31,862 nucleotides of DNA from the NCBI GenBank assembly GCA_945635805.1, contig CALZCW010000001.1, forward strand, positions 1 to 31,862, in the 5' to 3' direction. Origin of the DNA: an uncultured Clostridia bacterium. Lineage in GTDB: Bacteria; Bacillota; Clostridia; Oscillospirales; Oscillospiraceae. Position numbers and translations under genes: made by a program. The notes beneath the pieces are model-generated. The model saw only the letters and a list, made by a program, of their open reading frames with translations. It had not been told where the DNA came from and did no database searches. Of this stretch, positions 4,291-31,860 are shown one piece after another (the first letter of the stretch is position 1; each line of letters begins with the position of its first letter).

Positions 4291-4328
4291 ATAAACTATT
4301 GAAGGACGGAAAGCGAGGTGGATACCGG

Positions 4329-12055: not shown

Positions 12056-12103
12056 AAGACCGGAGGGGTTGATAATAAAATCTAAAAAATGGAGGAAAAC
12101 GTA

Positions 12104-13612
12104 ATGAAGAACTGGAAATCCCTGTTAGCACTGTTTCTGGCCCTGATTCTTGCTGTCGGTGTTCTGGCGGGCTGCCAGACAACGTCCCAGCCCGACGACA
12201 CAAAGGCCAGCGACAATCCCTCGGACCCCAAGACGTCCGACACTCCGTCCACTGCTCCGGAGGACGATGTGTATCAGATGAAAGGCTCTGTTACCATCGC
12301 ATATCCGGAAGCGGAAATCGCGGAGATTCAGCCTGTCCTTGAGGCTTTCCGCGCGCAGTATCCCAACATTGAAGTCGTGGAAGAGCCCTTCCCCGGCTCC
12401 ACCGGCGGTGCATTCAACGAGTACCTGACGCAGAAAGCCGCCGCCAACAGCATGCCCGATCTCATGTGGCTGGACTGGAACGATTTCGCGCCGGAGGTCG
12501 CCAGCGGCTTCGTCATGCCTCTGGATGAGTATTTCGACGCGGATCCGGAAGCGGCCTATGTTCCCAGCGGCATGACCGACCCCTATGTTTACGGCGGAAA
12601 GCTGTATGCCCTGCCCTGCCAGATGAACGCCATGGGTATCACCATTAATCTGGATATGCTGGAGGCGCTGAACATTGAAAAGCCCGGCTATGACTGGACG
12701 GTGGATGAGTTCATCGACATCTGCAAGAAGGCGATCACTGCCGACACCTGTGCCGCAGCCACCCTCGAGGACTGGGATCAGGTCTACTCCGCGCAGGCAG
12801 AAGGCCTGTTCTATCCGGCATACGATTATGTGAATCAATCCTTTGACTTTACCAACAAGTGGGTTCCCGCCATGAATCAGCTCGCCGAGCTGCGGGCGAT
12901 CCCCGGCCTGGAGGCATGGTCGATGCGCTTCCCCAAGAATGAGGACGGCACCACCTCCATGGATTCCGAGTATGTCGCGAAATTCGGCGAAGCCGGCAAG
13001 GACGACAACCACTACACCTTCAAAAACGGCATGGCTCTGCTGTGCACCAACGCCACCTGGAACGACAACTGGATGCGTGCCGAGTGCCAGGTCAACTGGG
13101 ATTACTGGCCCTATCCGCGTGTGGATGAGAACACCCCCACCTACACCCCCATTCATGTGGACTGCGCCTACCTCACCAGCACCTGCGCCGACCCGGATGC
13201 AGCCTTCCAGCTTCTGAAATGGCTGACCTACGGCGTTGAGGGCAATATGCAGCGGCTGGATATCTTCGCGGCCCGTGTCGACGGTCAGACTGCCGGCGAA
13301 GACACCAAGCTCATCAAGACCTGGTTTATTCCCTGCACCCAGCATCCCGATGTTCTTGCGAAGTTTGAGCAGGCTCCCAATGTCAGCGAAGGTCTGATGG
13401 CTCTTTACAAGAGTCTGGAACACTCCATGCGCGGCGACATCAATAAGATTATCCCCGGCTACAACAACATCTTCAACGACGAAGTCTGGTCCATGCTCAA
13501 CTCCGTCCGCGAAGGCAAGGCCAATGCCGCCGATGTGGCCGGCCAGATCGACTCCATCGTCAACGCGGCGCTCCAGGAGCAGCTTAAAATCTTCAACGAA
13601 AAAGTAAGCTGA
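12104..13612 (+). CDS. Sugar ABC transporter solute-binding lipoprotein
   Basis: From the ATG at 12104 (GGAGG 8 bases upstream) the protein is 502 residues. It begins with a lipoprotein signal whose lipobox LAGC puts the lipidated Cys at 24, followed by a Ser/Thr/Asp/Pro-rich tether to about 55. The mature part is a family 1 extracellular solute-binding protein (VTIAYPE, then VLEAFRAQYPNIEVVEEPF, PDLMWLDWND, YGGKLYALPCQMNAMGI, and DPDAAFQLLKWLTYG near the end). Aromatic residues are abundant, as expected for sugar contacts. It captures the oligosaccharide outside the membrane. Its permeases are not adjacent but follow in two pairs. A very stable hairpin follows its stop codon. Confidence 0.9.
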   Translation: MKNWKSLLALFLALILAVGVLAGCQTTSQPDDTKASDNPSDPKTSDTPSTAPEDDVYQMKGSVTIAYPEAEIAEIQPVLEAFRAQYPNIEVVEEPFPGSTGGAFNEYLTQKAAANSMPDLMWLDWNDFAPEVASGFVMPLDEYFDADPEAAYVPSGMTDPYVYGGKLYALPCQMNAMGITINLDMLEALNIEKPGYDWTVDEFIDICKKAITADTCAAATLEDWDQVYSAQAEGLFYPAYDYVNQSFDFTNKWVPAMNQLAELRAIPGLEAWSMRFPKNEDGTTSMDSEYVAKFGEAGKDDNHYTFKNGMALLCTNATWNDNWMRAECQVNWDYWPYPRVDENTPTYTPIHVDCAYLTSTCADPDAAFQLLKWLTYGVEGNMQRLDIFAARVDGQTAGEDTKLIKTWFIPCTQHPDVLAKFEQAPNVSEGLMALYKSLEHSMRGDINKIIPGYNNIFNDEVWSMLNSVREGKANAADVAGQIDSIVNAALQEQLKIFNEKVS

Positions 13613-13701: not shown

Positions 13702-16590
13702 ATGAAACGTACCATTTTCATCATAGCAGGCGTATTGCTCATTCTCTGCCTTGTGGTGCTGGCAGTGTTTTCGGTGGTCGTCCATCAGGAAACCGCCGGC
13801 CTGCACACGGAGGATATGCTTGGCCGAACCTATTTGCTTTCTGATGAGGAAATGGCTGCCGGTCAGCTTGACTTTCAGAATGCGGTCAGCGCCAGAACAG
13901 AGTTTCCAGACGGCCTGCGGATCAACGCAGAGGAGACAAAGCAGGTTTCGCTGCGTCTGAGCGCTTCGGGAACCTACTGCCTTGCCGCCGTCTATGCCGC
14001 TCCGGAGAAGAACCTTTTTGAAAACCTAGTCGACTTCACGGTAGGAAACACAGCATTCACAAGCACGCTTTCCTTCCTGTGGGCCGATGACATTGAGCAA
14101 ATCAAAACAGACCGCTACGGAAACGAGGTGCTGCCGGAGCAGTATCAGCTCCCCTATGCCGCCTCCTTCCTGAGGGAATACGAGTCTTTTTCCGGTATTC
14201 CGCTGTTATTCGACTTGCCCGCCGGGGAGGTGGAAATCACCGTCCGCCCTCAGAATCAGGGACTTCTTTTGTACGGGATTTACGCGGTCGCACCCCAGCG
14301 GGACCTTTCCTATTCCGAATATCTCTCCGCTCTGCCCTCCGACACTCCTTATACAGGGGAGCTTCTCACTCTTCAGGGTGAAGACTACCGAGCAAAGAGC
14401 GACAGCTCCATTCGGGGAACCAACGTTCCCAATGTTTCCGTCTCTCCCCAGAGCCCCTATGTAAAGCTGATCAACGCGACTGCGGACGAATCCAACAAGG
14501 GCATGGGGCAAAAGCTTTACTATGAAGCAGAGGCTCCCGAGGACGGAATCTACTATCTGAGCTTCAAATACAGCCAGCCAAAGAAAACCGGCGGCTGCGC
14601 TTATCGAACCATTGAAATCGACGGCAAAGTGCCGTATGCGGAACTGCGGGACGTGGGCTTTCCGTATACCGGCATCAATACATATAAAAATCTAACGCTG
14701 GATACAGGCGTATATCTGACGCGCGGGATTCATGTCATCTGTCTGGAAGTCACCGCAGGGCCCATGGAAGCCCCGTATCAGGAGCTGCTGGCCGTTGTGA
14801 ATGAGATCAACGACACGGGCATTGCGCTGAAGCGGATTAAGGGCAATAATTCCAATGAAAGCGCGGGGGTTGACACCAACCGCACCTGGGACATCCTGCA
14901 GTATATGCCGGATATTCTGGAGCGGCTCGAGGGCTGGTCGGCCCGGCTGACTGCGGTTTATGACACGCTGAAGGATATCGGCGGAATGGAGCCCGCTTAT
15001 GTCTCCGATCTGATGCTGGCAGTTCAGAATCTGGAGCGGCTGGCGGAAAAGCCGCGGGAAATCCCGAACAAGCTGAGCCTTCTCAGCGACGATTCCAGCT
15101 CGGCGGCACAGCTTGCCGCCCTGACCCTGACGAATATTTATGAGCAGAACCTGAGTCTGGACTGCATCTATCTGCACGGAGCCGGCGAAAAACTGCCCTC
15201 CCCTACGCCCGGCCTTCTCTCGGGCGTAGCTACCGGCATCAAGCAGTTCCTGTATTCCTTCTCTGACAACATGAATGAAACGGTGGATGTGGAAAATGAG
15301 GCGGAGGCTCTGACGGTATGGGTCAACAAGCCGTCCCAGTATGTGGAAGTGCTGCGGCAGTTGACTGCCGATCAGTTCACAGCGGACACGGGAATCGAGG
15401 TCAGCTTCTCGATCATGCCGGACGAAAAGAAGATCACGCTCGCAAACTCCACCGGCAATAATCCGGATATCGCGCTGGGGTTGAGCTACTACCGCCCCGC
15501 CGAATTTGCGATGCGCGGCATGGCCGTGAATCTGCTGGAATTCGATGATTTTCTGGACTGGTATGGAGCGGAATACAATCTTCAGGCGCTGTCGCCCATG
15601 GCTTATGAAGACGGTGTGTACGGCGCCAGCGAGACACAGGAGTTCTATGTGCTGTTTTACCGCACGGACATCCTGGCGGATCTTGGGCTGGAAGTGCCGC
15701 AGACCTGGGACGACGTCAAGGCCATGATGCCGGTGCTGCACCGGAACGCCATGAATTTCAATCTGCCGCTGGCAAACAACGTCGGCTACAAGAGCTTTGA
15801 GGCCACCGGCGGTTTTATCTTCCAAAATGGCGGCGACTACTATTCCGACGACGGCTTTTCCTCCAACTTTGGAGATCCCGACACCCTTCAGGGTCTTCGG
15901 GAGATGATAGACCTGTATCAGGTCTACGGCCTTGCGCAGAATATTCCCAACTTCTTCAATGCCTTCCGTTCCGGCAGCGTTCCGATCGGCGTATCCGGCT
16001 TTTCCACCTATCTCCAGCTTCAGGTCGGCGCGCCGGAGCTGAACGGCCGTTGGGAAATTGCTCTGGTTCCGGGGACAAAGCAGGCGGACGGCACCATCTG
16101 CCGCTACTGGTCCGCCGACGCAACCTCCTCCATGATTTTTGCAAATACCCGCAAAAAGGATGAGGCATACCGTTTTCTGAAGTGGTGGCTGTCCTCGGAC
16201 ACGCAGCTTAAATACGCGACGGAGCTTCAAATGAAATACGGCTCCGATTACATCTGGAACACAGGCAATCATGTTGCGCTGGCGGGTATGTCCTATCCGC
16301 TGGCCCATAAAAAGATCATTCTGGAACAGTGGTCCTGGCAGAAGGAGGCGCTGCGCCATCCCGCCAGCTACATTCTGGAGCGCGAGGTCTCAAACGCGTG
16401 GATTGCCATCGTAACACAGGGCGAGCCTTTCCAGGCGCGCATTGATGAGGCGACACTCGCCTCCAACCGCGAAATACAGCGAAAGCTGACCGAATTCGGA
16501 TATCTGGATCAGGACGGAAACCGGCTGCGGGACTATAACATCCATCTGATTGATGACCTGATTGCAGAAAGAGAGGAGGAAGGGCATTGA
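13702..16590 (+). CDS. Membrane-anchored protein: beta-sandwich domains plus solute-binding domain
   Basis: A 962-residue protein starts at an ATG preceded by GGGGAGG. Residues 5-27 form one hydrophobic helix without a lipobox, probably an uncleaved anchor. Residues about 30-390 are beta-rich and include a segment (about 265-370; LYYEAEAPEDGIYYLSFKY, TIEIDGKVPY) resembling carbohydrate-binding modules of the CBM35/CBM6 kind. A helical linker (about 395-525) follows. From about Ala534 it is an extracellular solute-binding domain (ALTVWVNKP, ITLANSTGNNPDIALG, MAVNLLEFDDF, DEAYRFLKWWLSSDTQ). It is roughly twice the length of an ordinary binding protein. It overlaps permease 1 as TTGA and probably delivers sugar to it. 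Similar long proteins occur, from memory, in Paenibacillus and clostridial operons with YIP1 and DUF5696 genes. Confidence 0.8.
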   Translation: MKRTIFIIAGVLLILCLVVLAVFSVVVHQETAGLHTEDMLGRTYLLSDEEMAAGQLDFQNAVSARTEFPDGLRINAEETKQVSLRLSASGTYCLAAVYAAPEKNLFENLVDFTVGNTAFTSTLSFLWADDIEQIKTDRYGNEVLPEQYQLPYAASFLREYESFSGIPLLFDLPAGEVEITVRPQNQGLLLYGIYAVAPQRDLSYSEYLSALPSDTPYTGELLTLQGEDYRAKSDSSIRGTNVPNVSVSPQSPYVKLINATADESNKGMGQKLYYEAEAPEDGIYYLSFKYSQPKKTGGCAYRTIEIDGKVPYAELRDVGFPYTGINTYKNLTLDTGVYLTRGIHVICLEVTAGPMEAPYQELLAVVNEINDTGIALKRIKGNNSNESAGVDTNRTWDILQYMPDILERLEGWSARLTAVYDTLKDIGGMEPAYVSDLMLAVQNLERLAEKPREIPNKLSLLSDDSSSAAQLAALTLTNIYEQNLSLDCIYLHGAGEKLPSPTPGLLSGVATGIKQFLYSFSDNMNETVDVENEAEALTVWVNKPSQYVEVLRQLTADQFTADTGIEVSFSIMPDEKKITLANSTGNNPDIALGLSYYRPAEFAMRGMAVNLLEFDDFLDWYGAEYNLQALSPMAYEDGVYGASETQEFYVLFYRTDILADLGLEVPQTWDDVKAMMPVLHRNAMNFNLPLANNVGYKSFEATGGFIFQNGGDYYSDDGFSSNFGDPDTLQGLREMIDLYQVYGLAQNIPNFFNAFRSGSVPIGVSGFSTYLQLQVGAPELNGRWEIALVPGTKQADGTICRYWSADATSSMIFANTRKKDEAYRFLKWWLSSDTQLKYATELQMKYGSDYIWNTGNHVALAGMSYPLAHKKIILEQWSWQKEALRHPASYILEREVSNAWIAIVTQGEPFQARIDEATLASNREIQRKLTEFGYLDQDGNRLRDYNIHLIDDLIAEREEEGH

Positions 16591-17534
16591 AATTAAAGGA
16601 GAAGAAAAAAGCGGGGCATCCGCTCCGGCGTGCCGTATCCCCTCTGGTAAAGCACTTCAACCGCCACCCCGTGTTCTATATGCAGGCACCTTTTGTAATA
16701 CTGTTCCTGCTCTTTATTGTCATCCCCGTAATTCTTGCCATTGCCCTGTCCTTTACGGACTTCAACTCCATAGAAAAGCCCAATTTTATAGGTCTGGAGA
16801 ACTATATCAACATTCTGACCAACGACAATACTTTTACGGAATATGCGATCCCAAACACCATCGTATACTCCGTCATCGTCGGCGTCGGCGGCTATGTTCT
16901 TTCTTTCTTCCTTGCCTGGTCTCTGGCGCAGATTCCCAAGGGGCCGAGGACGGTCATGGCAATTGTACTCTACCTTCCCTCCATGACCGCGGGCGTCATG
17001 CTCTCAACCGTGTGGCAGGTTTTCTTTGCGGGCGACAAGGTGGGATATCTGAACGCCCTCCTTCTGAATCTGGATATCATTCAAAGCCCGATCACCTGGC
17101 TGTCGGATTCCAGATATCTGATGGTGATTATGATTATCGTCTCTTTGTGGAGCAGCATGGGCATCGGCTTTCTCTCCATGCTGGCAGGCATCCTGAACGT
17201 CAACAGGGAGCTTTACGAGGCGGCCCATATTGACGGCGTCAAAAACCGGATTCAGGAGATCATTTATATCACAATCCCGGCGATCAAGCCCCACATGATG
17301 TTCGGTGCGATCATGGCAATCGTAAACGCCTTTCAGAACGGCAGCATCGGCGTCCAGCTTTCCGGCGCAAATCCGACGCCCGGCTACGCCGGACAGCTTC
17401 TGGTGACCCACGCGGATGAATATGCCTTTGTCCGTTATGAAATGGGATACAGTGCGGCACTCTCGGTAATCCTTCTGATCATCGTCTGGGGCGTGTCTCA
17501 GATATCCAAGAAGCTCTTCGCGGAAAAGGGGTGA
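16587..17534 (+). CDS. Sugar ABC transporter permease (MalF/UgpA type), pair 1
   Basis: The TTG start at 16587 follows GAGAGGAGGAAGG and overlaps the previous stop (TTGA); the next Met is 31 residues in and would cut into the first membrane segment region. The 315-residue protein has six predicted transmembrane helices, beginning APFVILFLLFIVIPVILAI. It carries the EAA coupling loop as EAAHIDGVKNRIQEIIYITIPAIKP, where an MsmX/MalK-like ATPase docks. It forms the inner-membrane channel with the next gene product. No ATPase gene is in the window. Confidence 0.9.
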   Translation: MKLKEKKKAGHPLRRAVSPLVKHFNRHPVFYMQAPFVILFLLFIVIPVILAIALSFTDFNSIEKPNFIGLENYINILTNDNTFTEYAIPNTIVYSVIVGVGGYVLSFFLAWSLAQIPKGPRTVMAIVLYLPSMTAGVMLSTVWQVFFAGDKVGYLNALLLNLDIIQSPITWLSDSRYLMVIMIIVSLWSSMGIGFLSMLAGILNVNRELYEAAHIDGVKNRIQEIIYITIPAIKPHMMFGAIMAIVNAFQNGSIGVQLSGANPTPGYAGQLLVTHADEYAFVRYEMGYSAALSVILLIIVWGVSQISKKLFAEKG

Positions 17535-17539
17535 ACGGT

Positions 17540-18457
17540 ATGAGAAGATCCAAACGCCTGCAGATTATCGGCATCAATCCAAAGCATTTTGACCGCTCCC
17601 AGATCAAGTTTTTCCTGTATCTGATTCCGGTTACGATCCTGATGGGGCTTCCCATCGTATTCATCTTCTTCAACGCCTTCAAGCCGCTTGATGAGCTGCT
17701 CAATTATCCCCCGAAATTCTATACTCTGCGTCCGACCCTTCAGAACTTTCAAAACCTCATGGCAACCTCTGCCAACAAGGCAATCCCCATGAGCCGTTAT
17801 CTCTTCAACAGTATTCTGACCACGCTGGCAGTCGTATTCTTTACCCTGATCATCACGACCATGGCGGCCTACTGCATGTCCAAGAAGAACTACCGTCTGA
17901 AAAACTTCCTCTTCGGCATCAATGAAGCTGCCTTGATGTTCGTTTCCGCCGCAGTCGCCATCCCCCGATACATCATCATAAACCGTCTGGGGCTGGTTGA
18001 CAGCATATGGGTTCACATCATCCCCCTGCTTGCCATGCCCGTCGGGCTGTATCTTGTCAAGCAGTTCATCGACGATCTGCCGGACGAGATGATCGAGGCG
18101 GCCCGGCTGGACGGAGCAGGCGACTTCTACATTCTGCGGAAAATCGTCCTGCCAAACATCAAGCCCACGCTGGCAACCGTCGCGATTCTCGCCTTCCAGG
18201 CCTCCTGGAACAGCATGGAGGCGTCCAACTATTATATCAACAATGAGGCCCTGAAAAGCTTTTCATTCTATATGTCCACGCTGACGCAGTCCTCCGGCAA
18301 TGCGAACGCCATGGTAGGCCAGCTCGCAGGCAACGCGGTTGCCGGGCTGGGCATGCAGGCGGCGGCAACACTGATCATGTTCCTGCCGAATCTGATTCTG
18401 TTTATCATCCTCCAGTCCCGGGTCATGAATACCATGTCCCATTCCGGTATGAAGTAG
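17540..18457 (+). CDS. Sugar ABC transporter permease (MalG/UgpE type), pair 1
   Basis: This is the partner of the preceding permease. The ATG at 17540 (AAGGGGTGA 6 bases upstream) gives 305 residues; a GTG at 17531 overlapping the previous stop is possible but too close to the purine-rich site. Six predicted membrane helices are present, the first at KFFLYLIPVTILMGLPIVFIF. The EAA loop reads EAARLDGAGDFYILRKIVLP. The large loop after the first helix contains the family's PPKFYTLRPTLQNFQNL stretch preceding a long helical segment. Confidence 0.9.
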   Translation: MRRSKRLQIIGINPKHFDRSQIKFFLYLIPVTILMGLPIVFIFFNAFKPLDELLNYPPKFYTLRPTLQNFQNLMATSANKAIPMSRYLFNSILTTLAVVFFTLIITTMAAYCMSKKNYRLKNFLFGINEAALMFVSAAVAIPRYIIINRLGLVDSIWVHIIPLLAMPVGLYLVKQFIDDLPDEMIEAARLDGAGDFYILRKIVLPNIKPTLATVAILAFQASWNSMEASNYYINNEALKSFSFYMSTLTQSSGNANAMVGQLAGNAVAGLGMQAAATLIMFLPNLILFIILQSRVMNTMSHSGMK

Positions 18458-18470
18458 GGAGGGCTGCGCT

Positions 18471-20519
18471 GTGAAACGAAAACGCCTAACGGCGGCACTG
18501 CTGTGCATATGCCTTCTGTTTGTATTCCTTCTCAACGCGCTTCCCGCGCATGCGGTGGAAGGAACCTCCTACACATACACGCTCTCTGCCGACCGCTCAG
18601 ACTTTATTCCCACCATGGACGCTTACCTGCCCGCCGGCGTCTATCTTCTTGAGGCCGGGCTGAACTCCCCGGAGGATCTGTTCCTCTGCGGGCGGGAATT
18701 GTATATCGCAGATACGGGCAACAAACGGATTGTTGTCTATTCGATGGATACCGGAGAGATTGACACCTTCGGTGAAAATGAACTGGTCAAGCCGACCGGC
18801 GTCAGCGTTGACGCGAACGGATATATTTACGTTGCGGATTATGGAGCGGAGCAGGTCGTAATCTTTGCGCCGGACCACAGCGTATCCCGCTGTCTGACCC
18901 GTCCGCCGGAAATCTACTACGGAACAAGTCCCTATAAGCCGCAAAAGGTAGATCTCGACAGCTACGGAAACCTCTTTGTCATCAGCGAGGGCACTTATGA
19001 GGGCATCCTGCAGTTCGATAAGAACGGCCGCTTTAACGGCTTCTTCGGCGCGAACAAAACGAAGGGGCTGAGCGCCGTCGAATGGTTTCAGAAGATTTTC
19101 TACACGGAAGAGCAGAAATCGAAAATGACCTTCCGGACGCCGCCCAACATCGTATCGCTGGACGTTTCCGACTCTGACATGGTATTCTCCATAACGCAGA
19201 ACGACAAGGACAACGCCGTCCGCAAGCTGAACATGGCAGGAGTCAATGTTTTTGCGGACGACAGTATCTGGGGCTTTGAGAACTATGTTGACGTCACCGT
19301 CCTGCCGGACGGCACCTTCTATGCGGTCACAAGCACCGGCTGGATCGACGAATTCAATGAGGTGGGCGACTTCCTGCTTCAGTTTGGCGGGGAGGCCAAA
19401 AAAACGGACCGCAACGGCCTGACGGCGGTTGTAAGCGCCATAGAAGCGGACGACGCAGGAAACCTCTATATTCTGGACAAGGAACGCAACGTGATTCAGC
19501 TCTGGTATCCGACGGAGTATGCCGCCCTGCTGCATCGGGCCGAAGCGGATTTCCGGCAGGGGCATTATGAAGAAAGCCTCGCCGCATGGGAGGAAATCCT
19601 GCGGATGAATCCCGCCGCCTACATGTCCAATCTTGGCTTCGCAAAGGCTCTGTTCCAGTTGGGACGGTATGAAGAAGCGGCAGAGCATTTTGAAGCAATC
19701 CGGTACGCGCCCGGTTATTCGGACTGCTTTTGGGAGATCCGAAGCGAATGGATGAGAGCCAATATGAAGTGGATTCTGCTCGGTCTGGCTCTGTTTGCGC
19801 TGCTCTGTCTGATCCTGAGTCTGCTGGAAAAGCGGTACGAATGGAAAGAGGCCCTTGCGGAGCGGTACGCGCGGTGCTGCGGCAGGCACAGCCTGCTGCG
19901 GGAACTGACAACCGATGTTCTTTTCTTCCTGCGGCATCCCATCGACGGCGTTTACTATCTGAAAATCGGTCAAAGGGGCAGCGTAACGGCTGCAAGCATC
20001 CTTTATCTCACGGCGCTGCTCGTCTATATGGTATGCCGGGGTCTGACATCCTTTGTCTTTGGCGGCGGGTATTCTTATTACAACGATCCGTTTGCGATCC
20101 TGCTGATTGTAATCGTCCCCTCCGTCCTGTTTCTGGCAGGCAGCTATCTGATCAGCTCCATCCATGACGGCGAGGGCAGTTTTCGGGCGGTTTACGTGGC
20201 CTTCGGCTACTGTCTGTCCATGTTTATCCTCTGCTGGCCCATCCTGACGCTGCTTTCCCATGCGTTCACCCTGACGGAAATCTTCATATACCGTCTGCTC
20301 GCCTTCCTGATTCTGGGTTATACCGGTATTCTGATTTTCATCAGCATCAAGGAAGCGCATGTATACAACCTGCGGAAAACCGTCGCCAATATTCTTCTGA
20401 CGCTTTTCTTTATGGTGGTGGCAATTCTGGCTGCAATCATACTCTACATTCTGTGGAGAGAGCTGCTGTCCTTCCTTTCCGAAGTTTTTGAGGAGGTGCG
20501 TTACCGTGTGTTCTCGTAA
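18471..20519 (+). CDS. Exported NHL-propeller / TPR / YIP1-like membrane protein
   Basis: The start is a GTG preceded by GGGAGGG; the length is 682 residues. A signal peptide ends near AHA (residue 29). Residues about 55-350 form an NHL-type beta-propeller (LNSPEDLFLCGRELYIADTGNKRIVVY, GVSVDANGYIYVADYG, IEADDAGNLYILDKERNVIQLW). Two TPR-like helix pairs follow at about 355-420 (AEADFRQGHYEESLAAWEEIL, ALFQLGRYEEAAEHFEAI), then a transmembrane helix at about 432-452. The C-terminal 200 residues carry five or so helices in a YIP1-like arrangement (HPIDGVYYLKIGQRGS). The propeller should face outside. It sits between permease pair 1 and DUF5696, so a role as scaffold, sensor or assembly factor of the transporter is inferred. 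No enzymatic motif is seen. Confidence 0.7.
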   Translation: MKRKRLTAALLCICLLFVFLLNALPAHAVEGTSYTYTLSADRSDFIPTMDAYLPAGVYLLEAGLNSPEDLFLCGRELYIADTGNKRIVVYSMDTGEIDTFGENELVKPTGVSVDANGYIYVADYGAEQVVIFAPDHSVSRCLTRPPEIYYGTSPYKPQKVDLDSYGNLFVISEGTYEGILQFDKNGRFNGFFGANKTKGLSAVEWFQKIFYTEEQKSKMTFRTPPNIVSLDVSDSDMVFSITQNDKDNAVRKLNMAGVNVFADDSIWGFENYVDVTVLPDGTFYAVTSTGWIDEFNEVGDFLLQFGGEAKKTDRNGLTAVVSAIEADDAGNLYILDKERNVIQLWYPTEYAALLHRAEADFRQGHYEESLAAWEEILRMNPAAYMSNLGFAKALFQLGRYEEAAEHFEAIRYAPGYSDCFWEIRSEWMRANMKWILLGLALFALLCLILSLLEKRYEWKEALAERYARCCGRHSLLRELTTDVLFFLRHPIDGVYYLKIGQRGSVTAASILYLTALLVYMVCRGLTSFVFGGGYSYYNDPFAILLIVIVPSVLFLAGSYLISSIHDGEGSFRAVYVAFGYCLSMFILCWPILTLLSHAFTLTEIFIYRLLAFLILGYTGILIFISIKEAHVYNLRKTVANILLTLFFMVVAILAAIILYILWRELLSFLSEVFEEVRYRVFS

Positions 20520-22758
20520 ATGGATCGTCAGAATCGGTGCGCTCCTGTTGACCGGAGCAATGCTGCTCAGCGTACTTGCTGTGGAAGAGAACCGCAGGGA
20601 CCCCTCTCCGGCGGCGTCTTTCACGGCGGGAGGTCTGTTGGAAGCCAACTCCAACAGGCAGGTACATCCCTTTTCCACAGAGGAAGTAAAAAGCCAGTTC
20701 ACAGCCGAGGGCTTTGAAAAGGCCGGCGAAACAGACAAACTTGAGATTTTTCTGAACCGGGAGGAGGGCGCGCTGCGGATCCGCAATAAACACACGGGGT
20801 ATCTGTGGGGCGCGCTCCCGATCGGTGAGGCAGAAGGCTTGAATTCCTCCTGGCGCTGCTATGGCAACGGTCTTGTTTCGATCGAATGCTTTAACAGCGA
20901 AGGCGTTGAAAGCCGCGTCAGCATCGGTAAGGACGGCGCCGCGCAGTACGAGTTTCTGGACAGCGGTCTGCTGTGCAGCGTGGAATTCCGTGAGCAGGGC
21001 ATTTCCTTTCAGGTCAGAGTGCTCTGGGAGGACGACCGCATCTCCATGGAGCTGGTGGAGGGTTCGCTTGCCGAAAAGTGCAATGACAGCGGCTACTCCC
21101 TGAAATCCATGACCTTTCTTCCCTTTCTCGGCAGCTCCTATTCCGATTCGGTGGACGGCTACATTCTGATTCCGGACGGCAGCGGCGCCCTGATCCGTTA
21201 CCGGCAGCCTGCGAATTACAGCTCCACCTATGCCGCGAGAATATACGGGAAGGACTACGGGATCGAGTCTCTGGCAAGCACCGCAGACAACACCGCCCGT
21301 CCGGAGGCACAGGCTCTGATGCCGGTCTACGGGATGGTGCATGGCGCCGGTCAGAACGGGTACCTTGCGGTGGTGGACGGGGGCGCGGAATATGCCAGCA
21401 TTCTTGCAGCACCGGCACAGACGAATAACCCGTACAACTGGGCGGCAGCGCGGTTTGAATTCCGGCAGAAGTACGTCAAGAACATCAACCGCAAGGAGGG
21501 CGCCGGTGCAAATGTCCCGCAGGAAGCGGCCAATGCCGTCATTCCAAAGATTTCCTTCTATTTCACGGACGGCGCACAGGCAAACTATGACGGCATGGCC
21601 GTCATGTATCGGGAAATGCTCATCTCGCAGGGCGTTCTGACGCCGTTGAATCCCACGGACGCTGCCGTTCCCCTCCGCCTTGAAGTTCTGGGCGCAGACA
21701 AGAAGGAGAACTTTCTCTGGAATACCACGGAGGTCTTCACGACAATTTCCGAGATAGAAGAAATCCGGGCGTCGCTTCGGAATGCAGGTATCGACGATCT
21801 GGATATGATCCTGCGCTGCTATACGAAAAACAACGAATGCGGAAGCAGGCTTTTATCTTCCCTGGGCAGCCGAAAGGAGCTGGAAACGCTGGGACAGGAG
21901 CTTCAGAATACCGGCGGTTCCCTCTCCCTCTATCTGGACCCAGTCACCGCCAACGAAGACCAGATCACGCTGAGGACCGAAGCGGCGAACAGCATGTCCA
22001 GAAATGAGATCAGGTGGATCGACGGCCTCGCGTCTCAGATGTACCCTTATACATATCTCTATCGTCTGACGGAGGCAGAGCAGCGCATCCAAAAAGCCAT
22101 AAAAAGAGACTATGGCGCCGGCTTTGCGCTGGCGCAGGCTTCCAATAAGCTATACAGCGATTTCACCTCGGGCAAGGAGGTGCCGCGCGCGGAGAGCCTG
22201 CAGAGGGTGATCTCCATGGCAGAGCTTCTGTCGAGCGGGCAAAAAATTGCCATGTACCAGCCGAATCAGTATCTCTGGCAATATGCGGATAAAATGTATG
22301 ACCTCCCCGCGGCAAACAGCCAGATTCTCTTTGAAACCGACTGTGTCCCCTTTCTGCAGATTGTTCTCAGCGGCTGTGTGGAATTGTACGGCAGCACAAT
22401 CAACACTTCCTCCTATTCCACGGAACGCCTGCTGCGGCAGATCGAATACGGTCTGGCTCCGGCCTTCATCGTCACGGGCTGTGACAGCACCAAGTTGTAT
22501 CACACCGCTCAGGAACGGTATTTCTCAACCAGCTTTTCGGATTGGCAGCCCCGCATCGAGCAGGCTTACTGGACGGTCTCGGAAGGTCTTGGCAAGGTCT
22601 GGGGGCACAGCATCGTATCGCATGGGTGTCTGCAAAACGGACTGATTCGGGTGGAATACGACAACGGCGTCAGCATTTACCTGAATTATACAGACACACC
22701 TTTGACGGCCGGTGAAATTCGGGTCGAGGCCGGATGGTTTTCGGTGATTGGGGGTTAA
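20506..22758 (+). CDS. DUF5696-like exported protein, possible glycosidase fold
   Basis: The GTG at 20506 is chosen because AGGAGGTG lies 7 bases upstream; the in-frame TTG at 20488 is part of that site. The protein has 750 residues and overlaps the previous gene by 14 bases. Residues 10-26 form a signal peptide or anchor. After it comes a beta-rich domain (about 75-330, with RIRNKHTGYLWG), then a region alternating strands and helices (about 395-640: LRLEVLGADKKENFLW, DDLDMILRCYTKNN, SLSLYLDP, QILFETDC), and a terminal beta segment (VEYDNGVSIYLNYTDTP). That order resembles retaining glycosidases with an N-terminal sandwich and a TIM barrel. I match it to DUF5696 from memory of its neighbourhood with YIP1 and permease genes. 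Activity is unproven. Confidence 0.6.
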   Translation: MCSRKWIVRIGALLLTGAMLLSVLAVEENRRDPSPAASFTAGGLLEANSNRQVHPFSTEEVKSQFTAEGFEKAGETDKLEIFLNREEGALRIRNKHTGYLWGALPIGEAEGLNSSWRCYGNGLVSIECFNSEGVESRVSIGKDGAAQYEFLDSGLLCSVEFREQGISFQVRVLWEDDRISMELVEGSLAEKCNDSGYSLKSMTFLPFLGSSYSDSVDGYILIPDGSGALIRYRQPANYSSTYAARIYGKDYGIESLASTADNTARPEAQALMPVYGMVHGAGQNGYLAVVDGGAEYASILAAPAQTNNPYNWAAARFEFRQKYVKNINRKEGAGANVPQEAANAVIPKISFYFTDGAQANYDGMAVMYREMLISQGVLTPLNPTDAAVPLRLEVLGADKKENFLWNTTEVFTTISEIEEIRASLRNAGIDDLDMILRCYTKNNECGSRLLSSLGSRKELETLGQELQNTGGSLSLYLDPVTANEDQITLRTEAANSMSRNEIRWIDGLASQMYPYTYLYRLTEAEQRIQKAIKRDYGAGFALAQASNKLYSDFTSGKEVPRAESLQRVISMAELLSSGQKIAMYQPNQYLWQYADKMYDLPAANSQILFETDCVPFLQIVLSGCVELYGSTINTSSYSTERLLRQIEYGLAPAFIVTGCDSTKLYHTAQERYFSTSFSDWQPRIEQAYWTVSEGLGKVWGHSIVSHGCLQNGLIRVEYDNGVSIYLNYTDTPLTAGEIRVEAGWFSVIGG

Positions 22759-22762
22759 GAAT

Positions 22763-23653
22763 ATGAAAAAGCAGAAAAAAGAAGCTCGGAGAAGCCGCCT
22801 GCGTCTGAGCTATCGCGCGCGCAGCACCGTCACCGGAACCATGTTCTTTCTCCCCTGGCTCATCGGTTTCTTCGCCATTACCGCCTATCCGCTGATCTAC
22901 TCTCTTGTAATCTGCTTTCATCAGGTGCAGATCAAGCCCGGAGAGATCGGGCTGGAATACATCGGCTGGGAATATTTCCGGCAGGCGTTCGCGGTGGATA
23001 CGGAGTATCCGACCAAGCTCATCTCCTCTGTCTGCAATGTGCTGATGGGAACACCTCTGGTGGTCGTGTTCTCTCTGGTCATCGCCCTGCTGCTGAACCG
23101 GAAGTTCCGGGGAAGGACGGTTTATCGTATTGTATTCTTTCTGCCGGTTGTCATCATGTCCGGCCCCGTAATGTCCGAGCTGATGTCGGAGTCCTCCGCC
23201 ATGAGCATCAATATGGATATCATGGGAATCCGCAGCATCCTGATGGAGCTTGACTATGGCTGGGCAAGCGTCCTTCTGACATTCCTGAACAGCTTTGTCC
23301 GAATTCTGTGGTTCTGCGGGGTTCAGATCATTGTATTTCTTGCAGGCCTGCAGAAGATCGACCGGAATATGTATGAGGCCGCCGCCATCGACGGCGCAAC
23401 CGCATGGGAAGCCTTCTGGAAAATCACCCTGCCACATATGCGGCCGATCATCCTTCTGAACACGATTTACACGATTGTCGAAATGGGAACCGCTTCGGAC
23501 GATGCGACAAATGTGAAGATCGTCGGGGCTATCCGCGACATCGCCCGTCCTTACAGCTATGCCGCAGTTCTTTCCTGGATCTATGCGTTCTGCCTGCTGC
23601 TGCTGATTCTGATTGCGTTCGTGCTGCTGAAGCCGCGGAAAGGAAGTGAATGA
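22763..23653 (+). CDS. Sugar ABC transporter permease (MalF/UgpA type), pair 2
   Basis: The ATG at 22763 (GGGGG 8 bases upstream) gives 296 residues; the in-frame TTG at 22748 lies within the preceding gene and has no better site. Six membrane helices are predicted, the first at TMFFLPWLIGFFAITAYPLIYSL, a common opening for this family. The EAA loop is EAAAIDGATAWEAFWKITLPHMRP. It is clearly different from the pair 1 permease, so the locus encodes two distinct heterodimers. Confidence 0.9.
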   Translation: MKKQKKEARRSRLRLSYRARSTVTGTMFFLPWLIGFFAITAYPLIYSLVICFHQVQIKPGEIGLEYIGWEYFRQAFAVDTEYPTKLISSVCNVLMGTPLVVVFSLVIALLLNRKFRGRTVYRIVFFLPVVIMSGPVMSELMSESSAMSINMDIMGIRSILMELDYGWASVLLTFLNSFVRILWFCGVQIIVFLAGLQKIDRNMYEAAAIDGATAWEAFWKITLPHMRPIILLNTIYTIVEMGTASDDATNVKIVGAIRDIARPYSYAAVLSWIYAFCLLLLILIAFVLLKPRKGSE

Positions 23654-24594
23654 GTTTGAAAAAAGACCGAACCTACTGGCAGAGAAAGACCTACTGGCTG
23701 ATTGGCAGCCGCGGAAAGGAAAACAGCCGGCTGGGAAAGCTGACGACTTACTTCATTCTGACCGGAATGGGCTTTGTGTTTCTCTATCCCCTGCTGTATA
23801 TGCTTTCCGTCAGCTTTATGGATACCGAGGATCTGGTGGACGCGACGGTGACCTGGATCCCGACGCATTTGTCCGTTGAAAGCTTTCTCAAGGCGGCCAA
23901 AACTCTGGATTTCTGGAGCGGCATAAAGGATTCCCTGATCATGACGGTCATTCCTGCCGGTCTTCAGACCTTTACACTGGCATTGACCGGATATGGCCTT
24001 GCCCGATACCGCGTTCCGGGCAAAAAATTCTGGATGGCGCTGGCCGTATTCATCTTCCTCATACCCACGCAGGTCACCATGATTCCGCGGTTTTTGCTTT
24101 TCAACTCCTATAAGATGATCGGCACCATCTGGCCCGTGTATCTGATCAGCGCTCTGGGTCAGGGTGTGAAAAGCTCCGTTTTTCTTCTGATCTACTACAA
24201 CTTTTTCAATTCCTATCCAAAGTCCCTCGACGAAGCGGCAAAAATCGACGGCGCCGGCCCGCTGAAGGTGTTCTTCAAAATTGCCCTGCCGATGGCAAAG
24301 CCTGCGCTGGTGCTGACATATCTGTTTTCCTTTATCTGGATCTGGAACGACACCACACAGCTTCCGCAGTATTCAACCGGCGCGGCAACGACGCTGCCCA
24401 TGCATCTGCAGCAATTCGTGGAGCGTTTCAACAAGCTGTATGCCTCGGTCGGCGTCAGCACCGGCGGCGCGCTGAACGAATCCATCCGGCTCGCCGGCAC
24501 GCTGCTCACAATCCTGCCGTTGATTCTTCTGTATTTCCTGGTACAGAAGCAGTTCGTGGAAAGCATCGAACGAACCGGACTGACGGGTGAGTAA
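23650..24594 (+). CDS. Sugar ABC transporter permease (MalG/UgpE type), pair 2
   Basis: This 314-residue partner of the preceding gene overlaps it by four bases (ATGA). Its first membrane helix is at TYFILTGMGFVFLYPLLYML. It has the VPGKKFWMALAVFIFLIPTQVTM stretch typical of MalG-like subunits and the EAA loop EAAKIDGAGPLKVFFKIALPMAKP. A hydrophilic N-terminal extension of about 30 residues (WQRKTYWLIGSRGKEN) precedes the first helix. As with pair 1, the ATPase must come from elsewhere, most likely a shared MsmX/UgpC-type subunit. Confidence 0.9.
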   Translation: MSLKKDRTYWQRKTYWLIGSRGKENSRLGKLTTYFILTGMGFVFLYPLLYMLSVSFMDTEDLVDATVTWIPTHLSVESFLKAAKTLDFWSGIKDSLIMTVIPAGLQTFTLALTGYGLARYRVPGKKFWMALAVFIFLIPTQVTMIPRFLLFNSYKMIGTIWPVYLISALGQGVKSSVFLLIYYNFFNSYPKSLDEAAKIDGAGPLKVFFKIALPMAKPALVLTYLFSFIWIWNDTTQLPQYSTGAATTLPMHLQQFVERFNKLYASVGVSTGGALNESIRLAGTLLTILPLILLYFLVQKQFVESIERTGLTGE

Positions 24595-24596
24595 CA

Positions 24597-27305
24597 ATGA
24601 AGTGGAAATTGACCGCACTGCTTTTCCTGATTGCGCTTTTTCTGACCGCGTGCTTCACCTCTAAAAAAGAAACCGCTCCCGTGCAGCCTGATGCTGCATG
24701 GGAGGAGCTTTTCTCCGATTGCATCCGTCTGCCCTCCGATGGGCTGATGCATGACCCCTTCGGCTGGGACAGCCTGTACGGCAGCAAGGAGGTTCCCACC
24801 GTCTGGTGGCAGCGCACGCCGCGCGATCCCGTGGCGGATACGGAAACGGAAATCTGTATCGCAGCGGCAAAATCTCTGGAGGGGAAGGAACTCTGGCTTG
24901 AATGGGCGAAAAACGGGCAGCGGATGGAGCCGGTTCCCTGCCGCCGCCGGGCAAACCTTCAAACCGACGGCGTTGAAAAAATTCAGTATATCGGCACGCT
25001 GCCCCGTACCGCATCCGGAGATCAGGTGCAATACATGATCTGTGCCGGTGAGGACGGAGTCGCCCTGAAAAGCCTCGGGCCGTTCAGCTTCAGCACCTCC
25101 TCCTGGGAGATCTTTACGCCCACCGGCGTACGAAGCTCTGAGACGGAGCTTCTGATCTGCGGAACGGCCGGGGAAAAGTCCGCCTGTCTCGCGGTACAGT
25201 CTAACGCGGAGGGGTTCCGGCTTCTTCTGTCTGACCGTGCCTGTCAGGAGATGGAGCCGCTTCCCGCCGTCCTTTCCGCCGGAAGCACAGCCTTCGCGGT
25301 GGACGGCAACGGCTGCTTTTCTCTCCTTGAAAACGGCCTTGCGCTGCTGCGCGGGCAGAAATTTGAACTGCTGACGGACGGATCGAAGGTGCAGGCTGTA
25401 CGCTTCACGCTGGATGCGGAAGAATCCGATCATTTTTACGGCTTCGGGATGAAATACGACTCGCTGGATCAGCGCGGAAAGGCAGTGGATACCTACTGCG
25501 TCAACTGGTATAAGGACCAGCGAGGAGAAACCTATACGCCTGTCCCGTACTATTTTGTCCCCAACCGGTACGGACTCTTTGTGGATTCCACATACTATTC
25601 CAGATTTGAAATGTGTACGGTCAACACGGGCAATGCCTGTGTGATTGAAGTGGACATGGGCGGCACGGAAGCGTTTGAACTGCCAATTCATCTGTTTACC
25701 GGCAGCAACGCTCAGATCGCGGCTTCCTATGCCGCCGTGGCCGGGCAGGCCGCGCTTCCTCCGGTATGGGCCTTTGGCCCGTGGATCTCGGCAAACGAAT
25801 GGAACAGGCAGTCTGAGATTATGGAGCAACTGGAGGCGACGCTCAAATATGAGATACCGGCCAGCGTGATCGTCATCGAAGCATGGAGCGACGAGGAAAC
25901 CTTTTACACCTTTAACGACTCCCGTTTTGAAACGGCTGAAGGCGGTGAGACGCTCAGTTACGAGGATTTTACCTTTACCGGACGATGGCCGGATCCCAAG
26001 GGGATGGTGGAGGCTCTCCACAGTAACGGAATCAGGTGTCTGCTATGGCAAATTCCGGTGCTGAAATACTCCACGGATGCAACGGCGCAGTCCGTGCGGG
26101 ATCAGCTCTACGCGGTGGAACAGGGATACGTCCTAAAATACGATGACGGCAGCATTTACCGGCTGCCGGGCGGCACCTGGTTCGGCAATTCCCTGCTTGT
26201 GGACTTTACAAATGAGGAGGCGTCCAGTTGGTTCCTGGAGAAGCGGCGGTATCTGCTGGAGGACGTGGGCATCGACGGCTTCAAAACCGACGGCGGCGAA
26301 TTTGTCTGGGGCCGCAGTGTCACAGCCTCTGACGGAACCCGTGGCGACGAGCTTCGCAATGCGTATCCCGACCTCTATGCCCAGGCCTACTATGACTTTG
26401 CAAACGCAGTCTCCGGCGGCAAGGTCACTTTCAGCCGGGCCGGCGGGAGCGGCATGCAGAAGCATCCGCTCTGCTGGACCGGTGACCAGAACTCGGACTT
26501 CGCCGCCTTCCAATCCGCAATTCGCGCCTCTCTCAGCGCAAACATGTCCGGAATTCCCTTTGTGGCATGGGATATTGCCGGATTCAGCGGGGATGTTCCC
26601 TCGGCGGAGCTTTATCAGCGCAGCGTGGCGCAGGCCGCTTTTTCCCCGGTGATGCAGGTTCATTCCGAGAATTCCGGCGACCCGACGCCCTCGCAGGCAA
26701 GAACGCCCTGGAACATGGCACAGCGCAAGGGCGACGATGCCTGTCTTGAGACCTACCGGTATTATGCCAATCTGAGAATGAACCTGCTGCCCTACATCTA
26801 CACAGAGGCCAGATGGGCCTCCGAGCGCGGGGAGCCGATGATGCGGAGCATGGCCTATGCCTTTCCTGAGGACAAAACCGCGGCAGAATATGAGTTTCAG
26901 TATCTTTTGGGCAGAAACCTGTTGGTTGCCCCTGTAACGACGCCCAACGCAAAGCAAATTGAGGTGTACATTCCGGAAGGTATATGGTATCATTTCTTTA
27001 CCGGCGAGCGTTATGAAGGGGGGATTCACCTGATCCCCGCTGCAGTGGATGAAATCCCCGTATTTGTTCGGGAAGGGACGATTCTTCCGGTCAACACGGA
27101 TGAAACCGGAATGCTTGCTTCCTACGTCGGCAACGGTACCGACGAATTTGTAAACCAGTGGTATCTTGTGTTTCCCGGAAACGGGAGATACACCTGGTAT
27201 GACTATGTCAACCAGAGGGAAATCATGGTGGAAACAAACGGTTCGGAACTTACCGTGGACGGCGCGCCGGCAACAAACTGGGAAATTCGAGGTAAAGGTG
27301 CATGA
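24597..27305 (+). CDS. Surface GH31 lipoprotein, KTDGGE type
   Basis: The 902-residue protein starts two bases after the permease stop. Its signal ends in the lipobox LTAC (lipidated Cys19), so it acts outside the cell. The beta-sandwich N-terminal region (about 60-395, with FYGFGMKYD) is followed by the barrel. The predicted nucleophile is Asp565 in FKTDGGEF and the acid/base Asp630 in CWTGDQ, then AWDIAGFSGD. Barrel segments such as EAWSDEETFY, RWPDPKG, LLWQIPVLKY and WFGNSL align with the cytosolic GH31 at 5383 almost residue for residue, so the two are paralogues sharing a linkage preference. Its likely job is first trimming of the polymer or oligosaccharide at the surface. Its stop overlaps the fusion gene start (ATGA). 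Confidence 0.9.
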   Translation: MKWKLTALLFLIALFLTACFTSKKETAPVQPDAAWEELFSDCIRLPSDGLMHDPFGWDSLYGSKEVPTVWWQRTPRDPVADTETEICIAAAKSLEGKELWLEWAKNGQRMEPVPCRRRANLQTDGVEKIQYIGTLPRTASGDQVQYMICAGEDGVALKSLGPFSFSTSSWEIFTPTGVRSSETELLICGTAGEKSACLAVQSNAEGFRLLLSDRACQEMEPLPAVLSAGSTAFAVDGNGCFSLLENGLALLRGQKFELLTDGSKVQAVRFTLDAEESDHFYGFGMKYDSLDQRGKAVDTYCVNWYKDQRGETYTPVPYYFVPNRYGLFVDSTYYSRFEMCTVNTGNACVIEVDMGGTEAFELPIHLFTGSNAQIAASYAAVAGQAALPPVWAFGPWISANEWNRQSEIMEQLEATLKYEIPASVIVIEAWSDEETFYTFNDSRFETAEGGETLSYEDFTFTGRWPDPKGMVEALHSNGIRCLLWQIPVLKYSTDATAQSVRDQLYAVEQGYVLKYDDGSIYRLPGGTWFGNSLLVDFTNEEASSWFLEKRRYLLEDVGIDGFKTDGGEFVWGRSVTASDGTRGDELRNAYPDLYAQAYYDFANAVSGGKVTFSRAGGSGMQKHPLCWTGDQNSDFAAFQSAIRASLSANMSGIPFVAWDIAGFSGDVPSAELYQRSVAQAAFSPVMQVHSENSGDPTPSQARTPWNMAQRKGDDACLETYRYYANLRMNLLPYIYTEARWASERGEPMMRSMAYAFPEDKTAAEYEFQYLLGRNLLVAPVTTPNAKQIEVYIPEGIWYHFFTGERYEGGIHLIPAAVDEIPVFVREGTILPVNTDETGMLASYVGNGTDEFVNQWYLVFPGNGRYTWYDYVNQREIMVETNGSELTVDGAPATNWEIRGKGA

Positions 27306-30300
27306 TTGGAGCAGTGATCTTTGATTTGGACGGCGTGCTGGCGGAAAGCGACCGCTATCATTTTTCCGCATGGCAGCAAACCTGCGAAAAATGGGGGATC
27401 CCCTTTTCCGCCGCCACCGGCGACCTGATCCGAGGGGTCAGCCGGCTGGACAGCGCGCGGATCATCGCAGCACAGGGCGGCGCACAGCTCACGGAGGACG
27501 AGTTGGCGGCTTTCGCCGAAGAAAAAAACAACTGTTATGTTCAGCTTCTCGAAACAATGACAGAGGCGGATCTGCTTCCCGGTGTGATGCGGCTGCTGCG
27601 GCGGATGCATGAGCTGGGGCTTCCCGCTGCGGTGGCGTCCTCCAGCAGAAATGCGCCGCTGATTCTGGAAAAAACCGGATTGCGCAGCTTCTTCTCCGTC
27701 GTCATTGACGGAAGTCAAATCAGCCATGCCAAGCCGGATCCGGAGGTCTTTCAAAAGGCGGCAGATGCGCTTGGCATTCCTTATGAAAACTGTCTGGTAG
27801 TGGAGGATGCCGTCAGCGGCGTGCAGGCGGCGCTCAAGCTGGGCTGCCAGGTGGCCGCGGTGGGTGGCGCCGCCGCAGCAGCGGGGGTTTCCTATCCGCT
27901 GAAGGTAACTGGGGATCTGCTGGAAATACTGGAAGGCGAGCTGATGCCCCATCTTCGGATCGCATCCCACCCCAAAGCGCTCCGGGAGAACATGATTCTG
28001 GACGGGGCGTATCGCATCACCGTTCTGACAAACCGTCTGTTCCGCGTGGAGCGCGGCGGCTTTACGGATGAGGCCACGCAAGCCGTCTGGTACCGGGATT
28101 TCCCCGCGGTGGATTATACCTACCAGGCAGACGAAAACACGCTGCGCGTACAGACCGATGCCCTGACGCTGATCCTCCACAAGGCAAACTTTTCGGACAG
28201 TGAGGTCATCTTTTCCGACGGCACCCGCGCAAAGCTGGATAATGCAGAGAATCTTTTTGGTACCTGCAGCACGCTGGACACGAACGGTTCCCACCTGCGT
28301 GAAAATCCCTCGGTGAATCAATACGACCGCCAGCACATTCCGCTGGACATGGGCGTCTGCTCCAGAAACGGCGCGGCAGTCTATGACGACTCCCGCAGTC
28401 TGCTCCTCCGTCCCGACGGAACGCTTGTTCCCCGTGGCGACGGGATGGACGTCTACGTCTTTGCCTATGGGCATGATTATCCGGCGGCGGTAAACGCCCT
28501 CTACCGGCTCTGCGGCGCCACGCCTGTTCTTCCCCGCTGGGCGCTGGGCAACTGGTGGTGCCGCTACTGGCCCTATACCCAGCAGGAATATCTCAATCTC
28601 ATGGATAATTTTGCGGATGACAGTATCCCCATCTCTGTCGCCGTCATCGACATGGACTGGCATCATGTTCAGATCGACCGGGATTTCGGCATCCGCGAAA
28701 AGGGTCTGGACGATGAAGCCCACGGGGGCACCGACGGCTGGACGGGCTACACATGGAACGAAAAGCTGTTTCCGGATCATGCGGCCCTTCTGAAGGAGCT
28801 TCACAAGCGCGGTATGCATACGGCGCTCAATCTGCATCCCGCCCTCGGCGTGCGTTGGTATGAGAAGCCTTACCACCGGATGGCGGAGCGCATGGGCATG
28901 GATCCGGAGGAAAAGAAAGTCGTTCCCTTCCGGATTGCCGACGCTCGGTTTGTCAACCATTATCTGAACGTCCTTCATCATCCTCTGGAAGCGGAGGGGG
29001 TCGACTTCTGGTGGATTGACTGGCAGCAGGGCAGGAACTCCGGTCTGGCCGGTCTGGATCCGCTATGGGCCTTGAACCATTACCATTATCTGGATCACGC
29101 GCATCGCTATGGGGAGGGGTTGATCCTTTCACGCTATGCAGGGCTCGGCTCTCACCGCTATCCCGTCGGTTTCAGCGGCGATATCCATATGGACTGGGAG
29201 TTTCTGGACTATATGCCCTATTTTACCTCCACCGCGGCCAACGTGGGTTACGGCTGGTGGAGTCACGACATCGGCGGCCACCACAGAGGGCTGCGGGATG
29301 AGGAACTCTACCTGCGCTGGCTCCAGTTCGGAGTGTTCAGCCCGATTAACCGCATCCACTGCTGCCCCGCCGAGGTTACTTCCAAAGAGCCCTGGACGCT
29401 GTCGGCGCCCATGCGGGCCATGGCGGAAAAATGGTTCCGCCTGCGCCACAGGCTGGTACCGTATCTTTACAGTGCTTCCTGGAAGAATACGCTCGAGGGA
29501 ACCCCGCTGATTCGCCCGATGTACTACGTCTGGCCGGAAGAAGATGCCGCCTATGAGGCAGATCATCAGTATCTGTTCGGTGACCTGCTGGTCGCGCCAA
29601 TCACCGAGAGGTCCAGGGAGCTTGGGATGGCAGAGAAAAAGGTGTGGCTCCCGGAGGGCGTCTGGACGGACCTCTTCACAAACCTTACCTATACCGGCGG
29701 GCGCTGGATAAGCGTTTATCGTGACAGCGGTTCCATGCCTGTATTTGCGAAAGCGGGTACCATTCTGCCTTTGGACGCCGCAGCGGAAAACAGTTGTGCG
29801 AAACCGGACAAACTGGACGTCCTCGTTTACTCAGGTAACGGCAGCTACGCGCTTCAGGAAGGCCGGGAGGACACAATCCGCTTTGCCGCTGAGATGGTGG
29901 AAGCAAACGACAGCCGGCGGCTGAAGGTTCTTATTTCCGGAAGCACAAGAGAAATCACCTACCACGTCTATTTCAAAGACATCGAGGACGGCACGTGCAG
30001 TCTGAGGGTAAACGGGAAGCCTGCGCGGGCACTGATCCGTAAAAACCGCTGCCTGCAGGCGGTCTTTACGCTTGCTCCGGCAGAAGATGCCGAACTGACG
30101 GCAGACTGGCAGCCAAAAGGCTCTTCCGCGTTGCTCCGGGAGAGGCTTCTTGCCTGCTTCATTCAACTCCCTCTGGATAACTGGTATAAGGAAATGCAGT
30201 GGGAGGCTGCAAAAGAAATCCGTACCTTCTCCGGCTGGCTCCAATGGATCGAATCTTTGCAGCTGTGCAGGACGGGAAAGCAGATGCTAATGGAGCGGCT

Positions 30301-31809: not shown

Positions 31810-31860
31810 AGCGGCCTCTATTGAGTAGCCAATCGCTCTTGTGGATTCCATTAGCGTTGG
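31810..31860 (-). pseudogene. Possible 5' remnant of a GHKL/MORC-like ATPase fused to DUF3841
   Basis: In frame with the DUF3841 gene and directly before its start, the minus strand encodes PTLMESTRAIGYSIEAA. This strongly recalls the first helix of GHKL ATPases of the MORC/Hsp90-like prokaryotic group (ESxRxIGYSxEAAIADxIDNS). The helix is cut before its catalytic Asn, at the DUF3841 start codon. The match is to a short motif from memory, so confidence is limited. Confidence 0.35.

Follow-up and report, generated by a model that had tools for sequence, protein, structure and literature searches.

The capture and uptake of glycans by Gram-positive bacteria of gut and soil is less clear than in the SusCD systems of Bacteroidota. 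The closest described relatives of the system reported here are ATP-binding cassette (ABC) importers of the CUT1 family that share an orphan ATPase, such as AraNPQ, GanSPQ and MdxEFG of Bacillus subtilis with MsmX. As described in PMC7658222, these combine MalF/MalG-type permease pairs with EAA loops and a solute-binding protein (SBP), while their clusters encode no ATPase. We analyzed a stretch of 31,862 nucleotides, hereafter the window, from an uncultured Clostridia bacterium of the family Oscillospiraceae (contig CALZCW010000001.1) and focused on a cassette of seven genes at 13702..24594. The cassette shares all of the above features, but differs in having two pairs of permeases, a large SBP whose relatives are CBM35-like and, as fixed components, an NHL/TPR/Yip1 protein and a DUF5696 protein. 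It probably represents a CUT1-type ABC glycan import system of two co-encoded modules, in which a shared MalK/MsmX-type ATPase would supply the energy in trans, the DUF5696 protein would act as pseudo-glycosidase receptor and the propeller/Yip1 protein as scaffold. Within the terms searched, the open-licence literature yielded no description of such a seven-gene unit, which agrees with the suggestion in the initial annotation of the window that it may be functionally undescribed.

All seven open reading frames (ORFs) lie on the forward strand and are joined by overlaps of 4, 4, 32, 11 and 4 nt and one 13-nt gap; the tight packing reported in the initial annotation is thus real. The first three genes constitute what we call module A. 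SBP2 (13702..16590, 962 aa) comprises a hydrophobic N-terminal segment, a region that is CBM35-like in its relatives and a C-terminal solute-binding domain (Pfam SBP_bac_8, E 9e-20 at 556-843). It is followed by the MalF/UgpA-type permease P1a (16587..17534) and the MalG/UgpE-type permease P1b (17531..18457). Module B consists of a protein with NHL propeller, TPR and Yip1-like membrane domain (18471..20519), the DUF5696 protein (20488..22758), the exact start of which is uncertain because of its TTG start codon, and the permeases P2a (MalF-type, 22748..23653) and P2b (MalG-type, 23650..24594). Pfam BPD_transp_1 was found in all four permeases, confirming two permease pairs.

The order of these genes is conserved beyond chance. 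It was identical in 104 of 124 DUF5696 loci (window included), while 16 loci were cut by contig ends and four were rearranged or decayed; the repeat records L031, L034 and L065 were excluded from this count, and L131 was retained, although it repeats L130. Among the four deviating loci, the P2 pair moved upstream in L021, P1b moved in L130 and its duplicate L131, and several genes are broken in L112. In the latter, SBP2, DUF5696 and P2a are affected and P1b was not found, as though the whole unit decays jointly. DUF5696 matches occurred in 17 of 60 genomes, that of the window included, and in none of 16 other genomes of the window's genus. Apart from contig ends and variants, the same arrangement was found in 20 neighbourhoods and in 41 named loci of Paenibacillus and Clostridia, the groups in which conservation had been anticipated. 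At the level of the class, 64 of 291 genomes contained 83 strong DUF5696 matches (E<1e-60), and in 78 of these an NHL/Yip1 gene lies just upstream on the same strand; read singly, the remaining five comprise one with NHL and Yip1 genes and four at contig ends. Only one of the 23 weaker matches adjoins an NHL gene, at a contig edge. This survey used 106 DUF5696 rows, excluding fragments that continue another match and rows weaker than about 1e-12, and 81 NHL/Yip1 rows, excluding rows that match Yip1 alone and extend a preceding NHL row. Of 398 genomes sampled across the phylum, 37 showed strong matches (E<=1e-60); up to three DUF5696 candidates and up to two SBP2 candidates (E<=1e-90) were scored per genome, and the copy numbers are lower bounds.

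The division into two modules emerged from a tally of 164 loci, which excludes the window and L099 and scores modules on the DUF5696 strand only. The NHL/Yip1 gene lies directly upstream of DUF5696 in 156 of them; seven are cut by ends and in L106 it is split off by an insertion. Likewise, the P2 pair lies directly downstream in 156 loci, with six cut, one moved (L021) and one scored as lacking it merely through over-long ORF starts (L181, where P2a-P2b are actually in place). The suggestion that the propeller/Yip1 and DUF5696 proteins are fixed permease partners is therefore borne out, and the neighbourhood analysis anchored on their genes, which could have found permeases to co-occur rarely, found them in nearly every uncut locus. 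Module A was complete in 137 loci, partial in five, absent with a short upstream side in 14 and absent despite room (at least 7.4 kb upstream of DUF5696) in eight, of which L190 has short downstream room. Across the phylum sample some loci show module B followed by module A and others module B alone, and we consequently rejected the idea of one indivisible seven-gene unit. The cassette is a constant core, module B, with a frequent partner, module A. As a separate observation, the interruption in L106 (11203-13450) consists of two opposite-strand genes that break DUF5696 and are insertion-element-like by sequence appearance, no search having been made.

Distance-matrix correlations over the 104 full cassettes follow the same division: 0.91 for P1a-P1b and 0.85-0.90 among NHL, DUF5696, P2a and P2b, compared with 0.75-0.78 for DUF5696 or NHL against P1 and 0.79-0.85 for SBP2 against all. 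The P2-minus-P1 contrast in 300 subsamples of 60 was 0.106 (0.025 to 0.175) for DUF5696, 0.085 (0.014 to 0.146) for NHL and -0.006 (-0.088 to 0.064) for SBP2. Partial correlations and subsampling agree with the split. In the tree, P1a (support 0.996, 12 sequences), P1b (0.968), P2a (0.969) and P2b (0.767) form four separate clades. An origin of the two pairs by recent duplication was rejected on this basis, with two ordinary permeases per type compared.

These results also bear on another explanation, namely two ordinary, separate ABC importers (SBP2 with P1, and SBP1, a binding protein encoded upstream, with P2) that are merely co-transcribed, with DUF5696 and NHL/Yip1 as dispensable accessories. 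P1 and P2 are indeed separate lineages that, in the same small comparison, are related to one another no more closely than to ordinary permeases; module B does occur where A does not adjoin it, and seven of the eight such loci have an ordinary SBP next to module B (none in L190); a further SBP was seen in 111 of 164 loci, and three genomes hold SBP2-like genes without a DUF5696 match. However, leaving aside loci that are cut, moved or interrupted, DUF5696 and NHL/Yip1 always stand beside P2, and they do so at 28-49% mean identity between loci, a divergence at which dispensable accessories would hardly have stayed. In addition, a second SBP was not seen in the stretch for 38 of the 104 full cassettes (SBP counts cover stretches of up to about 23 kb, or 28 kb for two plasmid records). 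We thus regard separate importers as rather unlikely.

Pfam DUF5696 (PF18952) matched 20488-22758 with an E of 3.7e-144 and 482 bits (cut-off 25.6), and the protein is predicted to adopt the fold of glycoside hydrolase (GH) family 129. In that family we take an Asp to be the nucleophile and a Glu, whose position we likewise assume, to be the acid/base. The window protein does not keep this pair and carries Gln and Tyr at the respective columns. Both residues were found in nine of 123 cassette DUF5696 proteins (four of the 123 are fragments below 600 aa), while 109 of them show an N-x-Y motif in place of the pair, which sets them apart from the GH129 and GH129-like enzymes NagBb (5wzn) and DagB/ZgGH129 (5opq, 8rzk). 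One alignment of the family was built from 50 of 58 DUF5696 proteins. In contrast, 14 of 14 stand-alone relatives hold Asp and Glu. These relatives (L082-L095, 561-668 aa) form a second Pfam DUF5696 group away from any cassette and look, from their residues, like an active glycosidase family hidden under the DUF5696 name.

Alternatively, the cassette DUF5696 protein could be a glycosidase that is active outside the cell through rearranged catalytic residues, making the cassette a degrade-and-import unit. The GH129 fold would suit such an enzyme, as would three positions (230, 256 and 653) that are conserved as acidic in the cassette proteins and the nine proteins that hold both residues. Besides, the catalytic residues of Zobellia DagB partly differ from those of NagBb (PMC5698469, also the source of the reference residues Asp435/Asp486). 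Yet one Asp is kept even between DagB and NagBb, and among the 123 cassette proteins only 37 have this residue at the aligned position, the window protein having Gln there. Furthermore, glycosidases are often already supplied by neighbouring genes. We therefore consider an active enzyme improbable.

The putative partner of DUF5696, encoded at 18471-20519, matched NHL and TPR above the Pfam cut-off, while Yip1 (PF04893) reached 20.8 bits and thus stayed below its cut-off of 28.6. In 59 of the 104 full cassettes a gene of its own encodes the Yip1 part, and 25 of 25 separate homologues match Yip1 at E<=0.01. Propellers (residues 45-350) fill the list of structures matched by the predicted model, so that the structural comparison covers the propeller part of the protein; the NHL alignment covered 43 of 56 NHL proteins, window included. 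What distinguishes this protein from Yip1 domains and NHL propellers in general is that, next to permeases, both are combined here with a TPR segment, either within a single protein or across adjacent genes. Importers rarely contain Yip1-like or propeller domains; a sensor, or an exporter or assembly system for cell-surface glycans, for which this oddity and one cassette without glycosidase neighbours might speak, is nonetheless very improbable given a binding protein and importer-type EAA permeases in 104 full cassettes and the catabolic genes (GH, GH65 and beta-phosphoglucomutase) that surround the cassette in the window.

Both permease pairs possess the cytoplasmic EAA loop (E...G...P) that CUT1 importers require in their two permeases. 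Over 104 loci, E, G and P are kept in 82-104 sequences per permease, the lowest value being the E of P2b (82, with D in 21); loops were scored by aligned columns after a strict pattern search had given many misses. The ATPase-docking loops are thus intact, while no Pfam match to any ATPase family was found among the window ORFs scanned. The initial annotation was right on this absence, but the absence itself is not remarkable. OB_MalK matched once in the window's genome (34.6 bits, cut-off 27; genome 67% complete), and a MalK-type ATPase was present in 15 of 16 cassette genomes, 13 of which have exactly one, among them G046 with its six DUF5696 matches. Within the stretch itself such an ATPase occurs in one of 125 loci at E<1e-30 and in six of 164 at a laxer threshold, including the plasmid cassette of Paenibacillus cellulosilyticus (L162), where ugpC lies directly upstream. 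MsmX and MsmK are established cases in which one ATPase serves several importers (PMC7658222). With a genome-encoded MalK and such multitask ATPases at hand, we rejected the missing ATPase as a special feature; the MalK-type ATPase presumably serves this importer.

As CUT1 importers require, extracytoplasmic SBPs are present (SBP2 and SBP1). In SBP2, matches to SBP_bac_8 and SBP_bac_1 are confined to the C-terminal part, and the nearest structure to this domain is Lin1841 (profile E 4e-35). Outside of it, the alignment profile matches structures of cycloisomaltooligosaccharide glucanotransferase (CITase), and CBM_35 was found in 11 of 34 alignment members, but not in the window SBP2. SBP2 had been proposed to carry its own membrane anchor. 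A hydrophobic segment is indeed there (residues 5-23, no lipobox), and the N-terminus is hydrophobic in 97 of 104 full cassettes and bears a lipobox-like motif in seven; however, several of these N-termini resemble cleavable signals, and SBP2 may thus be either anchored or secreted. The gene just upstream of SBP2 encodes an SBP in 15 of 31 cases (31 of 32 same-strand upstream ORFs scanned). One locus, L167, shows six ordinary binding-protein ORFs in a row after P2b, the first two of which overlap and may be one broken gene; the row suggests several SBPs feeding one transporter.

Taken together, we envision that module B acts as the constant core, often together with an ordinary binding protein. 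Because it combines a GH129 fold with a mostly lost catalytic pair, the most likely role of the DUF5696 protein is to bind glycans or guide them at the outer face. In its partner, the propeller and the TPRs would be external and the Yip1 bundle membrane-embedded, and this protein most likely scaffolds DUF5696 to P2. Module A, which usually joins the same operon, would contribute another permease pair along with a large binding protein, while the shared MalK/MsmX-type ATPase would energise import in trans. What had been noticed in the window is hence confirmed, and more strongly than the initial annotation could foresee, while its interpretation as a larger uptake machine is partly supported.

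Several observations weigh against this proposal. Asp is found at its column in 37 and Glu in 19 of the 123 cassette DUF5696 proteins, on alignments of about 12% identity, and since nine proteins have both residues, the catalytic pair has not been lost throughout and an unusual mechanism is conceivable. All eight loci with module B only belong to five genomes (G385, G407, G426, G479 and G508) that each carry SBP2 elsewhere; module A may thus act in trans, and B may not be independent of it. Conversely, G448, G497 and G424 have SBP2-like genes, on contigs of 3.1-4.3 kb (L204, L205 and L206), yet no DUF5696 match: either module A occurs there without B, or the contigs are mis-binned. Part of the correlation between distances stems from common ancestry and from rates that differ. 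In 53 of 164 loci the stretch showed no further SBP that could feed P2, and a MalK-type ATPase was not found in one of the 16 cassette genomes (86% complete). Finally, the cassette of L162 is followed by LLM-class flavin oxidoreductases and two SBPs, not by glycosidases, and its cargo is possibly other than a plain glycan.

Since strong matches occur in 37 of 398 genomes of the phylum and 64 of 291 of the class, beside many glycosidase families, the cassette could serve as a platform for uptake in general. Downstream of P2b there are genes for members of GH32, GH30, GH5, GH26, GH2, GH43 and GH127 (63 rows, from 62 of 120 listed ORFs and one stray stretch, L061:13000-13100). In five phylum genomes we counted 8 to 17 NHL/Yip1 loci per genome; G426 (17), G385 (10), G407 and G479 have 10 to 17 in genomes of 2-3 Mb, with G426 and G385 being MAG-like assemblies of up to 5% contamination (listed as 5% for G426). 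Tentatively, and with some doubt, one might speculate that module B is the core of an undescribed class of Gram-positive glycan importers: a membrane-standing pseudo-glycosidase would catch glycan chains and thread them into a dedicated pair of permeases, which the propeller/TPR/Yip1 scaffold would hold, while a second importer with its large binding protein would dock alongside. Such a machine would be the functional equivalent of SusCD in bacteria that lack an outer membrane, in up to 17 copies per genome for different substrates. Like SusCD-centred loci of Bacteroidota, it shows a constant transporter core repeated in the genome beside varied glycosidases; the likeness is in the way of working only, no search for SusC or SusD having been made. 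Proteins annotated only as DUF5696 and Yip1/NHL would thereby gain a testable role, and the data suggest the recruitment of a glycosidase fold as a transporter component.

In the window, the wider cluster spans from a LacI-type regulator at its head (4299..5393; Pfam LacI and Peripla_BP_3) to a beta-phosphoglucomutase/GH31 fusion (27302..30319), all on the forward strand. Between regulator and cassette lie GH31 (5383-7989), GH125-like (7986-9797) and GH65 (9794-11974) genes, which by hydropathy lack a hydrophobic N-terminal segment and may serve intracellular alpha-glucoside handling, followed by SBP1 (12089..13612; SBP_bac_1, E 5e-16), a conventional binding protein with a lipobox-like N-terminus that accompanies the cassette. 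Directly after P2b, a further GH31 protein (24597..27305) with a lipoprotein-type N-terminus and an Lmo2446-like N-terminal domain is probably located outside the cell. The fusion is a single ORF (TIGR01990, 196.9 bits, cut-off 189.4; Glyco_hydro_31_2nd, E 2.7e-56). Because GH65 occurs here with a beta-phosphoglucomutase, the cargo of the window cassette is, judged from these families, most likely an alpha-gluco-oligosaccharide. Rfam and tRNA scans of the window as well as a scan against viral contigs gave no matches. At the far end, a DUF3841 protein on the minus strand (31246-31860) runs off the window.

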